Made by a program: the position numbers and the translations under genes. 12,105 nt of DNA from Saprospiraceae bacterium (GTDB lineage: Bacteria > Bacteroidota > Bacteroidia > Chitinophagales > Saprospiraceae). Location of the stretch: positions 1 through 12,105 of the forward strand of contig JABDJM010000075.1 in assembly GCA_013002475.1 (NCBI GenBank), read 5' to 3'. Of this stretch, positions 1 to 5,766 are shown one piece after another (position 1 is the first letter of the stretch; the number at the start of each line of letters is the position of its first letter). Below the pieces are notes generated by a model. It was given only the letters and a program-made list of their open reading frames with translations, was not told the origin of the DNA and did no database searches.

Positions 1-299
1 CGCCAGAGGCGCGACAGCTAATTAGCACGTTAGTGCGTTTCAAAGAAAAGCCCCATCGGGGCAATATCTCCTTAGCGCCAGAGGCGCGACAGCTAATTAG
101 CACGTTAGTGCGTTTCAAGGAAAAGCCCTGGAAGGGCGACATCTCCTTAGCGCCATCGGCGCGACAGCTAAATAGCACGTTAGTGCGTTTCAAGGAAAAG
201 CCCCATCGGGGCAATATCTCACTAGCGCCAGAGGCGCGACAGCTAATTAGCACGTTAGTGCGTTTCAAGGAAAAGCCCCATCGGGGCGACAGCTAAAAA
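1..299. repeat. Hierarchical REP-like array: four 75-bp units, each of three 25-nt hairpin subunits
   Basis: Units start at 0 (first base lies outside the window), 75, 150 and 225, exactly 75 bp apart. Each unit divides into three 25-nt subunits. Subunit A starts with GCGCC-3 nt-GGCGC (0, 75, 150, 225) and continues GACAGCTAAwTA. Subunit B starts with GCAC-GTTA-GTGC (25, 100, 175, 250) and continues with GTTTCAA and an A-rich run. Subunit C starts with GCCCC-ATC-GGGGC (50, 200, 275) or GCCCT-GGA-AGGGC (125), usually with a tail ending CTCCTTA. Loops vary (AGA, ATC, GGA) while stems stay paired. The last C subunit (275-299) carries the A-type tail GACAGCTAA and stops 3 nt before the transposase ATG. 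The register and paired stem changes are seen directly. Calling the array REP/BIME-like rests on the adjacent RAYT gene. The array continues beyond the left edge by at least one base. Confidence 0.9.
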
Positions 300-302
300 C
301 AA

Positions 303-761
303 ATGGCAAACACGTACACCCAACTCTACATCCACATTGTCTTCGCCGTAAAGGGAAGAGCCAACGTAATAAAGGAGGATTGGCAGAAAGATCTTTACAG
401 ATACATTATCGGAATCGTGGATGGAAAGAAACAAAAGGTCTATTCTATTAACGGCATGCCCGATCACCTCCATATCCTTGTCAGCATCAAACCAGATAAA
501 TCCATTTCAGATCTGGTACGAGATATCAAATCTAATTCTTCAAAATGGATCAATGAGAAAGGCTTTGTACCTGGGAGATTTGAATGGCAATCAGGCTTTG
601 GAGCGTTCTCTGTGAGCCAAGGAGCCTTGGAAAATGTTGTTGCCTACATCAAAAATCAAAAAGAACACCACCAGAAATTCAATTTCCGCGAAGAATACAT
701 CAGGTTCCTTGAAGAGTACGCAGTCGATTTTAATGGTAATTTCCTTTTCGAAGAAATTTAG
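303..761 (+). CDS. REP-associated tyrosine transposase (RAYT), IS200/IS605 TnpA-like
   Basis: This 152-residue protein is a Y1 HUH single-strand DNA transposase/nuclease, a family that nicks at hairpin-marked sites through a 5'-phosphotyrosine link. The N-terminus TYTQLYIHIVFAVKGR is typical of the IS200-like fold. The metal-binding HUH motif is H55-L-H57 in MPDHLHIL, and the probable nucleophile is Y115 in AYIKNQKEHH. Both are intact and the length fits the family, so the enzyme is probably active. The ATG at 303 is the natural start. No Shine-Dalgarno is visible, only an A-rich leader made by the last hairpin subunit. Hairpin repeats flank the gene on both sides, and its TAG stop (759-761) is inside the first downstream repeat. 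This arrangement is expected of a RAYT acting on REP-like elements, although a small self-contained IS200-type element is an alternative. The substrate is inferred, not shown. Confidence 0.9.
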   Translation: MANTYTQLYIHIVFAVKGRANVIKEDWQKDLYRYIIGIVDGKKQKVYSINGMPDHLHILVSIKPDKSISDLVRDIKSNSSKWINEKGFVPGRFEWQSGFGAFSVSQGALENVVAYIKNQKEHHQKFNFREEYIRFLEEYAVDFNGNFLFEEI

Positions 762-790
762 CTGCCGCCCCTACGGGGCTCACAGCTCAT
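760..790. repeat. 31-bp hairpin repeat, copy 1, overlapping the transposase stop codon
   Basis: The repeat contains the hairpin GCCCC-TAC-GGGGC (767-779), preceded by AGCTGCC and followed by TCACAGCTCAT, so AGCT lies on both sides of the stem. It is identical base for base to 809-839. Its first two bases are the last two of the transposase TAG stop, so the gene end and repeat have evolved together. It has the 5-3-5 stem-loop geometry of the upstream array but a different loop and tail. Confidence 0.85.
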
Positions 791-808: not shown

Positions 809-839
809 AGCTGCCGCCCCTACGGGGCTCACAGCTCAT
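809..839. repeat. 31-bp hairpin repeat, copy 2
   Basis: This is an exact copy of 760-790, offset by 49 bp, with hairpin GCCCC-TAC-GGGGC at 816-828. The sequence between the copies is unrelated to the repeat. The 12 bases after its 25-nt subunit (841-852) end CCCCTTA, resembling the tail of subunit C upstream. This suggests a subunit that lost its stem. Confidence 0.85.
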
Positions 840-852
840 TTGAAACCCCTTA

Positions 853-927
853 GCGCCAGAGGCGCGACAGCTAAATAGCGCCGAAGGCGCGGCATCCCCT
901 TAGCCCTGTAAGCCTGCATGCCTTTGG
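853..927. repeat. Three in-phase 25-nt hairpin subunits downstream of the transposase, the last decayed
   Basis: Subunit 853-877 has stem GCGCC-AGA-GGCGC and tail GACAGCTAAATA, matching subunit A of the upstream array. Subunit 878-902 has GCGCC-GAA-GGCGC with a tail ending ATCCCCTTA, close to the subunit C tail. At 903, again in 25-nt phase, GCCCT-GTA-AGCCT looks like a C-type stem broken by substitutions. The rest of the gap, 928-993, shows no repeat and no convincing promoter. Confidence 0.75.
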
Positions 928-2328: not shown

Positions 2329-5300
2329 TTAGTCAATCTTTACTAACGGTTTCACCCAAAATCGATCGGATGAAGAAACCTTCACCTGGTACATTCCAGA
2401 AGGAATTCCCTGTGTAGAAATTTCCTTATAGAGTTTTCCCTGAGAAACAAAATCTTCGAAAGATCGAAGGAGTTTTCCCTCCTGAGTAAAGATCTCGATC
2501 ACTACCATACCTGCGGATATTCCCTCAAGTTCAAGGTTAAACGAACTGCTGGTAGGATTCGGAAATAATGAGAACTTTCGAAGCTCATCAAGGTCCTTAT
2601 TGGCCACCGAAAGAGGAATGGAGAAAGAATAATGTAAATCTCCCCCAAATTCAGGTTCAAAACTTTTTATCGGGATTTGTATCTGATCATTAAGAGCATA
2701 AGTAATTCTCAAAAATCCCGAACCTACAGATTGGCCAATGGCGTCCCAGTACCAGTAATGCAAACCATCATCATTGCTGTCTTCAAGAGTGAAAGAATAA
2801 CAACCTGCCGGGAAGTCAATTTCTTGAATATAATTTGACTGAGAGGCCATGTTATCCAACTCACCAAGAATGTTCCCTGAACCATCACGAAGGGTTAATT
2901 TATTTTCCTGAGGCCTTTGATTGGTGCGCAATTCAATTTCAAGTCCAGGTTGGTCAAACATTTCAACCTGCTCAAAGCTTGAACTCAATGAGTTGTTGCT
3001 GTCTCGTTGATCAGTACCACCATTCGGACTGGAAATGGAAACCTCGAATTTTGCATCTGAACTATTGGTCTCCCAAAAATAGAGGTCATCAATGGGTAGT
3101 ATGACCTCAGCCGTCTCATTAAAAGAGAGGTTTCCTAGCCAGGTAATGGATTCCTGAGTTCCACCCGTAATTCCATAGGTGATTTCCAGGGTGGTAAGGT
3201 TAGTGGAACCTGCATTCTGGATTATGATTAAAGCATCATCACAGTTTGGATTGGTCCTGGCAAATTCGTCACGGTCTGAAGGTCTTTGGATTTCTAAAAG
3301 TTCTGCATCCAATTCAAAATTCGGAGGACCATAGGTAACTAGTTGATTTGCCACCAGGTAATTTGCTTCGGCCATTGTACTTCCATTCAAACCGTAGTCT
3401 ATGGTAACTGAAGATCCCGGAGTACCAAGGGAAGTAATGTCAAACTCACGAACATCTGTAGCCATCCCGGGGCACCAACCTGCCCGGTCGAAGGTCCAGG
3501 TTCCTCCCTGAGGGTACACAGGGTTATCTCCACATTCCTTCCAAACTTCATATTTAAATTCCTGGGTCCCCCCATTGATATTGATATAATGCTCCCTAGG
3601 AATAAATTCTCCATTTTGACCATGCCCTGTAATGCTGGATCTGATCTTAAATGATGTCCCATTCTCATCAAGAGGAACGGTTCTTTCTTCGAAGACTTCC
3701 TCATTCTGAATAGGATCAAACCAGCCTCTGGCGAAAGGCCAGACATTCTGCATATTCACTACTTCCCTCGTTGGCGTCCCAGGTACAAAAATGAACTTGA
3801 TATCGAGCTCCTCCTGACTTTGTCCGCCCATTTCAACGGATAAGAATCTTTCTCCTTTTAGGATCGGGGCGTAATCCGTTACATCAAACCACCATGTTTT
3901 TCCTTCCGGACCAAGATCCAAGCCGTTACCATAGGGTGTAACAAAGGAGAGTAATTCAAACTTAGCATCCCGCTTGGCATAATAATTCAGGGTCCCTATA
4001 TCAATGCTTCCATCAGGCGAAACAAAAATGATCCCTACTTCCATACCATCCGCATCGTAAATAGTTTGGGTTTCGGCCAGCCAAAAGTATTCTGTATTGT
4101 CTAACACAAGATCTGTTCCGGCTACGCTATAATAGTTTACCGCATAGGGAAGATTAAAGAGCGTATCCAAAACCGGGGTCACGATCACAGAATCGCCCAT
4201 ATAAGTGTTCTGGTGAAAAGTGACATTGGGTCGATATGTGCCAATTGAAAAACCTTTGAATTGTTCCTGGCCTTTTTTGGTGCGCCATGGTGAAGCGCCA
4301 CTATATTCCTGAACAGGGGCTGAGGGAGCAAGGTCCGTCAAACTACCTCCTTCACCTTCATCAAACGGAAGGTAGGATACAAGGTCAGCATAATTGGGGT
4401 GATCAGCTGTCAACTTCCTTTGCATCCAATCTTGAATTGCCGAAACAGATAACTCCTTTTTCCAAACTCTGAATTCATCCAGCAAGCCTGGAAAAAACCG
4501 GCTTCCATCTGCAGCTTTACCAAGGACAAATCTTGAAAGATCAATCAATCTGGTTTTGGCAGTTCCGGAATGCCAAAGTTCTCCATTAAGAAAAATACGC
4601 ATGGTACCTGTGTTTGCATTCTTTGTAAATGCCCAATGGTTCCATTGCCCACGTAGGTCCTCAATGTTCGCAGCCTTGTCAATACGGTCATAACTTCCAC
4701 CATCGTTTCCACAATCCCAGTACACCCGGCTATTACCCCAAGGCAAGTGAATGTTCATGGTTCGCTGATTGTTTGCATTTACTGCATCCAAAATGGTGGT
4801 ATTGGATGGTATTGCTGCGGTGTCTCCATATGCCCAAAATGAAATGGTGACCTCCTCAGAGAGTTGCTGGAAATTTGTAACGTCATATTCAATTTCACCT
4901 GAACCATTTAACTCGATATGGTAATCATCCGTTTCAGAATAAAGAACTCCGTCATAAAGTATTTCTGAACCTGCGGCAGTATTGCCAACACCGGTGTTTG
5001 GAGAATTATAGGTGATCTCCATGATGATATTTGAAACTCCATCCCACAAGAAGGGTTGATAAAAATCAAATTGGAATTCACCCACACCCGGGAAGTCGGT
5101 ATCCCTTATGTACACTTCTTCAAATCCAACCAAATCCGGATCTGCAGGATTCAGAGCTACTTTGCTGGTATGTTTCAAGGCAATTCGAAAATATTCAATG
5201 GCATCACTGTCATTTAATATGTCCATGGTGATGTCGGAGATCAAGCCTGCTGTTAAGCCTTCAGCAATTAATTCACTGGCCGGAAAAAGCAGTTGGCTTT

Positions 5301-5766
5301 TTGACTGATCCGCTCCGCTATACAGAGTTAGTGGGGTCAATCCTGTTCCGATCTTAGCCGAGGATCCCTGAACAAGAGTTCCATGGACCATCTCCTGCTG
5401 ATTAACGGTGAGAAGGGAAAAGGTGGGATCTGTAGTGTATGGAAATGCATCTTCGGAAAAGCCCGGGATCAGATGAGTGGGGTGGGTAGCTTTTGAGCTG
5501 TCAATCCGGGTTGGGTCCGTAAGAAAGGTATTACAGCTATAATCCCATTCCCGGCAGCCTACTGCACCGCTCCCGACTAATCCTTCATGACAGCGCATTT
5601 GATAGACCATCCAGATTTTCTCAAAACTCTGACCAGGCTCATCCGGAAAGGAAAATGATCCCGAAGTGGAATTATCGTCAAGTGTAAGTGTCTGTACTGT
5701 AGTATTTTGTCCAAAAAGGAAGCCATTAAGGCATAACAAAACAAGGGTAAAAAGTAAGTTTTTCAT
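2329..5766 (-). CDS. Secreted PNGase F-like protein with inserted LamG domain and T9SS sorting tail
   Basis: This 1145-residue exported multidomain protein starts with a signal peptide (residues 1-19, MKNLLFTLVLL...FG). Residues 45-85 hold a cysteine-rich GCREWDYSCNT segment resembling the PNGase F N-terminal domain, with D75 a candidate catalytic Asp. Residues 138-255 form a beta-sandwich typical of T9SS cargo (SQLLFPASELIAEGL...PFLWDGVSNIIMEITYN). Residues 282-450 are a LamG/concanavalin-like domain (WNHWAFTK, IFLNGELW, GLLDEFRVWKKEL). Residues 595-665 resume PNGase F-like sequence (SFVTPYGNGLDLG, WWFDVTDYAPIL), and 670-815 match the PNGase F C-terminal domain (YPQGGTWTFDRAGWCPG at 751-767). 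Residues 820-935 look Ig/CARDB-like, and 940-1050 form a beta-rich domain with DSNDDG. Residues 1064-1145 are a type A T9SS sorting domain (FSLFPNPTSSSFNLEL). Single-domain PNGase F is about 315-350 residues. Likely role: extracellular or surface removal of N-glycans from glycoproteins. Activity is inferred, because the second catalytic residue was not assigned. Confidence 0.85.
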   Translation of the reverse strand: MKNLLFTLVLLCLNGFLFGQNTTVQTLTLDDNSTSGSFSFPDEPGQSFEKIWMVYQMRCHEGLVGSGAVGCREWDYSCNTFLTDPTRIDSSKATHPTHLIPGFSEDAFPYTTDPTFSLLTVNQQEMVHGTLVQGSSAKIGTGLTPLTLYSGADQSKSQLLFPASELIAEGLTAGLISDITMDILNDSDAIEYFRIALKHTSKVALNPADPDLVGFEEVYIRDTDFPGVGEFQFDFYQPFLWDGVSNIIMEITYNSPNTGVGNTAAGSEILYDGVLYSETDDYHIELNGSGEIEYDVTNFQQLSEEVTISFWAYGDTAAIPSNTTILDAVNANNQRTMNIHLPWGNSRVYWDCGNDGGSYDRIDKAANIEDLRGQWNHWAFTKNANTGTMRIFLNGELWHSGTAKTRLIDLSRFVLGKAADGSRFFPGLLDEFRVWKKELSVSAIQDWMQRKLTADHPNYADLVSYLPFDEGEGGSLTDLAPSAPVQEYSGASPWRTKKGQEQFKGFSIGTYRPNVTFHQNTYMGDSVIVTPVLDTLFNLPYAVNYYSVAGTDLVLDNTEYFWLAETQTIYDADGMEVGIIFVSPDGSIDIGTLNYYAKRDAKFELLSFVTPYGNGLDLGPEGKTWWFDVTDYAPILKGERFLSVEMGGQSQEELDIKFIFVPGTPTREVVNMQNVWPFARGWFDPIQNEEVFEERTVPLDENGTSFKIRSSITGHGQNGEFIPREHYININGGTQEFKYEVWKECGDNPVYPQGGTWTFDRAGWCPGMATDVREFDITSLGTPGSSVTIDYGLNGSTMAEANYLVANQLVTYGPPNFELDAELLEIQRPSDRDEFARTNPNCDDALIIIQNAGSTNLTTLEITYGITGGTQESITWLGNLSFNETAEVILPIDDLYFWETNSSDAKFEVSISSPNGGTDQRDSNNSLSSSFEQVEMFDQPGLEIELRTNQRPQENKLTLRDGSGNILGELDNMASQSNYIQEIDFPAGCYSFTLEDSNDDGLHYWYWDAIGQSVGSGFLRITYALNDQIQIPIKSFEPEFGGDLHYSFSIPLSVANKDLDELRKFSLFPNPTSSSFNLELEGISAGMVVIEIFTQEGKLLRSFEDFVSQGKLYKEISTQGIPSGMYQVKVSSSDRFWVKPLVKID

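Follow-up and report, generated by a model that had tools for sequence, protein, structure and literature searches.

Two partnerships between a Y1 (HUH) single-strand transposase and small DNA hairpins are the closest described counterparts of the locus considered here, a chain of mini-hairpins at positions 1-299 of a 12,105-nucleotide (nt) stretch of Saprospiraceae DNA, referred to below as the window, and the transposase gene tnpA that follows it. Elements of the IS200/IS605 family, such as IS608 and ISDra2, pair an HUH-Y1 transposase with small hairpins at the element ends, the left and right hairpins lying on the same strand. The hairpins are subterminal and occur at both ends, as set out in the relevant passages of PMC6006769. 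In the second partnership, repetitive extragenic palindromes (REPs), including their organization into bacterial interspersed mosaic elements (BIMEs) and REPINs, lie as inverted palindromes around the gene for a Y1 transposase, the REP-associated tyrosine transposase (RAYT); these palindromes carry GTAG or GTGG and are dispersed in many copies. BIMEs are of alternating orientation according to the abstract of PMC2817692, and tandem REP clusters and head-tail REP dimers are on record in the corresponding section of PMC3733652.

A further group of Y1 enzymes, TnpA subclass 1.2, is characterized in the subclass descriptions of Quentin et al. 2018 (PMC6006769) by a Y---Q--HH signature, a length of ~150 amino acids (aa), a distribution mostly in Bacteroidetes and Cyanobacteria, and low copy number. 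The same descriptions present these enzymes as generally lacking typical terminal hairpins. The REP search reported in that part of the paper called for GTAG or GTGG within 0-2 nt, together with a 7-20-nt basal stem, and such criteria would miss 5-bp stems followed by the tail, or foot, found at the present locus. Small stem-loops are also known from Bacteroidetes, among other phyla, as CGTC-tagged palindromic repeats, and small repeats in general may escape detection (PMC3733652, in its section on these repeats). Compared by description only, CGTC-tagged repeats are of the same small stem-loop type as the hairpins here, and that section describes no 25- or 50-nt step.

In this study, we examine the array, the tnpA gene and the hairpins found beside related genes. 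Most of the related genes examined have pairs of hairpins at their flanks, and the array looks like an overgrown version of such a pair. It is probably the left end of a small mobile element in which an IS200-like tnpA gene of subclass 1.2 lies between inverted hairpin modules, the 75-bp module on the left having been multiplied about fourfold. The arrangement resembles a REP-transposase or an IS200 system, yet lacks one defining feature of each, and no account naming it was found in open-access papers.

The hairpin array and the adjacent tnpA gene

Tandem Repeats Finder reports a 75-bp tandem repeat of 3.8 copies at 1-287, and a second tool places 144-nt copies at 1, 76 and 151, of which the later two are 88% and 92% identical to the first. 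Direct reading of the sequence resolves the array into 12 consecutive 25-nt subunits in exact register, A-B-C four times over, each a hairpin followed by a tail (Table 1). This bears out an earlier note on the window, which had also stated that the array reaches past the left edge: it is cut by the contig end, with the first base of the first A lying off the contig. The window is the whole of contig JABDJM010000075.1, in a genome of 593 contigs that is 81.6% complete, and since the left edge is a contig end in so fragmented a genome, the unit count is a minimum. A and C subunits consist of a 5-bp stem, a 3-nt loop and a 12-nt foot, and the B hairpin is weaker. At the C unit of the second copy, one pair and the entire loop are changed and the stem is preserved. 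The last C subunit bears an A-type tail. Folding, proposed as a check in the earlier note, shows the array strand to fold better than every one of 200 dinucleotide shuffles (z of -4.85 as DNA and -4.67 as RNA), and isolated A, B and C units each fold into their own hairpin. The 75-bp repeat can be written as 50 + 25: the last A and last C are 50 nt apart, C ends 15 nt before the ATG and B occupies the spacer, so that one repeat corresponds to one end module plus a foot.

When compared with the other contigs of its own, incomplete genome, the array found no match except 23 nt on one contig (C320). Exact unit A is confined to the window, and C320 carries one related pair, whose hairpins are 48 nt apart and of which the second contains a single G-T pair. 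In this genome, the leftward extension and unit search suggested in the earlier note yielded no further array contig and only this single related site.

The tnpA product scores 104 bits against Pfam Y1_Tnp. It lies above the cut-off of the NCBIfam IS200 TnpA model (76.5 vs 55 bits) and far below that of the curated NCBIfam RAYT model (32.6 vs 80 bits). Its YIKNQKEHH motif fits the Y---Q--HH signature of subclass 1.2, which is present in 109 of the 113 loci sampled below. All PDB chains matched by the protein (2xm3, 2xma, 2xo6 and 2fyx; E 6.4e-7 to 1.2e-4) are transposases, and the first three we take to be ISDra2 TnpA. Its own genome holds three further tnpA relatives, 40-44% identical to the window gene, in keeping with the low copy number of the subclass; 6682 protein homologues were found at E <= 1e-20, with all subclasses pooled. 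In signature, length, occurrence in Bacteroidetes and copy number, then, the window gene is, as judged from its sequence, of the TnpA subclass 1.2 type and not a typical RAYT. The earlier note had named the neighbour a RAYT, and this part of its claim is unsupported; the link to a Y1 transposase is strongly supported by the data that follow. The published account of subclass 1.2 as generally without hairpins differs from the loci examined here, most of which are flanked by them (PMC6006769, subclass descriptions). We read the flanking hairpins as probably correcting that account rather than excluding the proteins from the class. With respect to carriage by phages, viral contigs were scanned once for six peptide patterns, and no relative was found.

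Hairpin modules beside related tnpA genes

The main set comprised 81 loci, namely the window and the 80 best among 502 related loci, all taken from named genomes. A second family set held 29 loci and the three paralogues from the window's own genome (32 loci), for 113 in all, with one locus counted twice because L108 of the second set repeats L050 of the first. Hairpins were called when a perfect stem of at least 5 bp enclosed a loop of 3-5 nt within 250 nt of tnpA. When Pfam Y1_Tnp loci were sampled from the order, 30 were fetched and no open reading frame (ORF) was obtained for 4 of them. Small hairpins were present upstream of tnpA in 74 of the 81 loci and downstream in 70, amounting to 200 upstream and 174 downstream hairpins as compared to means of 11.9 and 13.1 in 20 shuffles. 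Their density per 250 nt was 2.49 upstream and 2.20 downstream, vs 0.21 in 1292 mostly coding windows located 1.2-3.7 kb away in the same loci. Upstream, the median distance from the end of the nearest hairpin to the ATG was 26.5 nt, with 50 of 74 loci in the range of 10-45 nt; downstream, the first hairpin began a median of 15 nt past the stop codon (70 loci). An absence of copies in relatives and of a link to the transposase would have spoken against the earlier note; instead, the hairpins recur in relatives beside tnpA.

Neighbouring hairpins follow a ruler of 25 and, above all, 50 nt. In the main set, 27 of 230 pairs were spaced by 24-26 nt and 115 by 48-53 nt (together 142/230). The proportions were 6/112 and 55/112 (61/112) in 40 loci non-redundant at 70% protein identity, and 9/72 and 23/72 (32/72) in the second family set. 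Across all 113 loci, the 400 nt on either side of tnpA make up 12.7% of the bases scanned, yet contain 47 of the 51 pairs with a 25-nt step and 162 of the 196 with a 50-nt step. Canonical IS200 loci (subclass 1.1) were too scarce to serve as a control (L177 and L179 from one search, three matches from a second and one locus from a third), and class-2 RAYT loci from the same bacterial class were therefore used; 19 of 30 fetched were usable, 11 being dropped because no ORF frame matched. Hairpins occur at these loci too, at densities of 1.68 and 1.79 per 250 nt, but are spaced at 24-26 nt in 1 of 34 pairs and at 48-53 nt in none of the 34, with a cluster of their own at 28-30 nt (13/34). Thus, the 25/50-nt ruler differs between the two transposase groups.

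The earlier note had called a strict 25-nt register with three hairpin classes unusual, but the 25-nt step is not confined to this locus: 50-nt pairs are the common arrangement, and runs of 3-8 units at 25 nt recur in 8 of the 113 loci, every one within 350 nt of tnpA. The window itself is left out of this count because its B stem has only 4 bp. These runs include eight hairpins in a row at L114 and six at L035, from a Chryseobacterium, where a ladder of six hairpins at 49-50 nt also lies downstream of tnpA. Modules in stretches that contain no tnpA relative as far as read were seen on C320, at L205 and at L207. L205 (genome G018, C7:780800-785600) presents two reverse-oriented hairpin arrays ~1 kb apart, one of which has a repeat step of 139 nt; the 4.8 kb read there contain no tnpA relative.

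The commonest unit has a GCTCC/GGAGC or GCCCC/GGGGC stem, a 3-nt loop and then a foot near GNMATATTAATAG; a 13-nt hairpin and a 12-nt foot account for the 25-nt step. Within 50-nt pairs, conservation extends over the outer foot but not over the following ~24 bases, where B sits in the window. Two different hairpin sequences are combined in 97 of 119 such pairs. Orientation was scored with a foot profile trained on the flanks under the assumption of plus upstream and minus downstream, with the tested locus left out. Among pairs with clear feet, both hairpins share one orientation in 81 of the 82 spaced near 25 or 50 nt, as compared to 21 of the 41 spaced otherwise. The strand of clear feet mostly switches between the flanks, upstream 120 plus and 21 minus (n=141) and downstream 88 minus and 18 plus (n=106). 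A search of both strands for GTAG or GTGG no more than 2 nt from the 5' side of the 5-bp stem found neither in any of 381 units.

The stems covary. When 81 upstream sequences were aligned with no prior selection for hairpins, the five pairs form in 83.6% of cells, vs 69.6% when shuffled and 44-50% with a slid partner, and 68 stem cells are doubly changed vs 23.8 in shuffles. The triloop, read on the foot-oriented strand, begins with a purine in 212 of 217 cases, is GNA in 100 and is closed by C-G in 210. Mini-hairpins of the C(GNA)G type are very stable in single-stranded DNA, and the loop asymmetry suggests that folding takes place on the hairpin-then-foot strand. Protein distance correlates with foot distance at a Mantel r of 0.38 and with spacer distance at 0.16 (47 loci); shared descent can yield such values, and we therefore put no weight on protein-foot co-evolution.

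Presence and absence of the hairpins could be compared at the hemF-hemB site of Flavobacterium, where hemB was found in all 61 genomes of the genus searched and 30 loci were read. All five loci with tnpA carry hairpins, and 21 of the 25 without tnpA show none (6 of the 25 were read only over the 200 nt before hemB). The leftmost hairpin touches the hemF stop region in 4 of the 5 occupied sites. The rightmost is followed in all five by a short AT-rich stretch; three of these stretches look similar, by eye, to the sequence that precedes hemB in empty sites. At these sites, therefore, the hairpins are the tips of the insert, with their feet directed inward. A strict unit pattern gave 12 matches in 6 of 20 genomes searched, all 12 within 300 nt of tnpA by coordinate (sorted by hand). 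With one mismatch allowed, 31 of 59 matches lay within 400 nt of the tnpA genes used and 28 elsewhere, the reversed control giving 16 in total. A dispersed REP family is unsupported for the units tested, by the strict and relaxed pattern searches and by the search of the window's own genome.

The site before hemB, which in most of the loci lies between hemF and hemB, is a recurrent home of this element in Flavobacterium and its kin (L145, L148, L150, L161, L162, L025, L030, L033, L038 and L045); L145, L150 and L162 appear to duplicate the loci L038, L030 and L045. The first hairpin supplies the hemF stop codon in L145, L148 and L150. Upstream of tnpA in L148, an 82-nt block made of the hemF 3' end and one hairpin unit occurs twice, the copies having diverged and both ending in TTTATAG, and shorter repeats in L030 and L038 likewise end at TTTATAG. 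This single case of duplication fits foot-directed insertion.

Interpretation and rival explanations

The reading of the array as the left end of an IS200-like element draws on the modules, their spacing and orientation, the covarying stems, the proximity to tnpA, the rarity of hairpins where tnpA is absent and their place at the tips of inserts, as these features appear in the sequences compared. Each module consists of a 13-nt outer hairpin that is followed by a foot of 12-13 nt, then by ~24 nt of spacer and finally by the inner hairpin and the foot belonging to it, the two hairpins standing ~50 nt apart, and fourfold or so multiplication of the 75-bp left module would produce the strict 25-nt register. 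TnpA would bind the hairpins as single-stranded DNA on the hairpin-then-foot strand and would cut near the foot, and the 50-nt step would fit two hairpins held by one TnpA dimer. Growth of the array could occur by the copying or insertion of modules beside a foot already in place, or the hairpins could cause slippage during replication. When set beside IS200/IS605 elements, the loci differ in having usually two hairpins per end, the 25/50-nt ruler, hairpins at the very tips in the one site examined, and, on the two flanks, mainly opposite strands rather than the same strand.

Several points weigh against this reading. The main set, being the best of the related loci, favours close relatives, and the remote windows, mostly coding, are a loose control for hairpin density. 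By the detector, 7 of 81 loci lack an upstream and 11 of 81 a downstream hairpin, and in the second family set the figures are 12/32 and 4/32. The 25-nt step by itself is rare in the non-redundant set (6/112). Weak feet are mixed in orientation (upstream 36 plus and 29 minus, downstream 43 minus and 26 plus), both long arrays of L114 share one orientation, and the helix used for the covariation test was picked after the alignment had been viewed. Four of the 25 tnpA-free hem sites hold some other short hairpin, one of them (L173) perhaps a relic, and the 28 relaxed matches away from tnpA, vs 16 in the control, indicate that some dispersed copies exist. Binding, cutting and movement by TnpA are inferred.

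A wider proposal, which we put forward tentatively and hold with less confidence than the identity of the array as an element end, is that subclass 1.2 enzymes may form a third partnership between a Y1 transposase and hairpins. Such enzymes, thought to be without cognate sites, would recognise strand-specific mini-hairpins on a 25/50-nt ruler that form the element tips on opposite strands and build arrays by single 25-nt steps. The hairpins offer a concrete candidate binding site for a large and little-studied group of transposases, and would correct the published statement on hairpins in subclass 1.2. An IS200-like enzyme in a REP-like arrangement bears on the origin of the domesticated REP transposases, and the constant spacing gives a structural hint at the way in which two hairpins may be held by the enzyme.

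The array could also be an ordinary minisatellite, a neutral 75-bp repeat arisen by slipped replication on hairpins, without function or special link to the transposase. Hairpins promote replication slippage, the tandem copies are 88-92% identical and, within its own genome, the array is known at a single place. The ruler, however, spans unlike hairpins at many loci on both sides of the gene, which tandem duplication alone does not account for, the stems covary, and class-2 RAYT loci lack the ruler. We consider this explanation unlikely; the minisatellite alternative of the earlier note is weakened as the whole story, and the copy number of the 75-bp repeat may still stem from slippage. More doubtful still is an RNA device, in which hairpins in the tnpA mRNA block translation at the start codon and end transcription downstream. 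In IS200, a 5' structure blocks translation, the hairpins here are close to both the ATG and the stop codon, and the RNA fold of the array is also stable. An RNA device leaves unexplained, however, why there is an outer hairpin and a foot, why purine-first loops lie on one strand upstream and on the other downstream, why hairpins take the tip positions and why modules occur without tnpA.

A classical RAYT system, with the array as an amplified BIME of a dispersed REP family, is improbable to a similar degree. It would explain a Y1 transposase, clear in its Pfam score, between inverted palindromes; some database sources call the homologues RayT, and tandem REP dimers and clusters have been described. 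On the other side stand the RAYT model score under its cut-off, the absence of GTAG or GTGG from all 381 units, the few copies far from tnpA in place of high-copy dispersal, a spacing unlike that of class-2 RAYT loci, and orientation, which is the same in nearly all 25- and 50-nt pairs where BIMEs alternate. That the array encodes a 25-residue protein repeat is barely credible. The repeat length of 75 is divisible by 3, and one plus-strand frame is open for 97 aa and one minus-strand frame for 89 aa, but the stems covary. The protein-coding repeat was rejected since similar arrays at other loci have a 25-nt step, with which no reading frame can be kept.

Feature coordinates and neighbouring genes

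Table 1. Positions of the array, tnpA and other features in the window
Feature	Position	Strand	Remarks
Hairpin array	1-299	+	12 subunits; 75-bp module present four times (outer hairpin A, weak hairpin B in the spacer, inner hairpin C); cut by contig edge
A unit	75-99	+	Hairpin GCGCC-AGA-GGCGC and 12-nt foot GACAGCTAATTA; other A units start at 150, 225 and the left edge (first base off contig); hairpins GCGCC-NNN-GGCGC at 1-12, 75-87, 150-162, 225-237
B unit	100-124	+	Weak 4-bp hairpin GCAC-GTTA-GTGC, at the spacer position of relatives' 50-nt pairs; other copies start at 25, 175, 250; hairpins at 25-36, 100-111, 175-186, 250-261
C unit of second copy	125-149	+	GCCCT-GGA-AGGGC at 125-137; paired change keeps the stem relative to GCCCC-ATC-GGGGC at 50-62, 200-212, 275-287
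Last module	225-302	+	Outer hairpin 225-237, inner hairpin 275-287, 50 nt apart; inner ends 15 nt before ATG; position usual in family
tnpA	303-761	+	Y1 (HUH) single-strand transposase, 152 aa; motifs DHLH and YIKNQKEHH; IS200-like, subclass 1.2 signature
First downstream hairpin	767-779	-	Reverse orientation; bottom strand GCCCC-GTA-GGGGC then GGCAGCTAAATTT, which overlaps the stop codon
Second downstream hairpin	816-828	-	49 nt from first; reverse orientation
Two further A-type units	853-903	+	Hairpins 853-865 and 878-890, 25 nt apart, forward
1145-aa protein	2329-5766		Lectin-like, peptide-N-glycosidase F C-terminal and Por secretion tail domains

Among the 80 related loci, at least 8 (L023, L027, L036, L042, L043, L044, L047 and L048) have a tnpA neighbour with type I restriction-modification domains, a raw count given without a background rate. 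The domains are Methylase_S, HsdM_N/N6_Mtase, or ResIII with SWI2_SNF2, and were read as hsdS, hsdM and hsdR. Five of these eight loci also carry an opposite ORF that matches only the first 61-79 of the 252 RhuM family positions, as if rhuM had been cut short.
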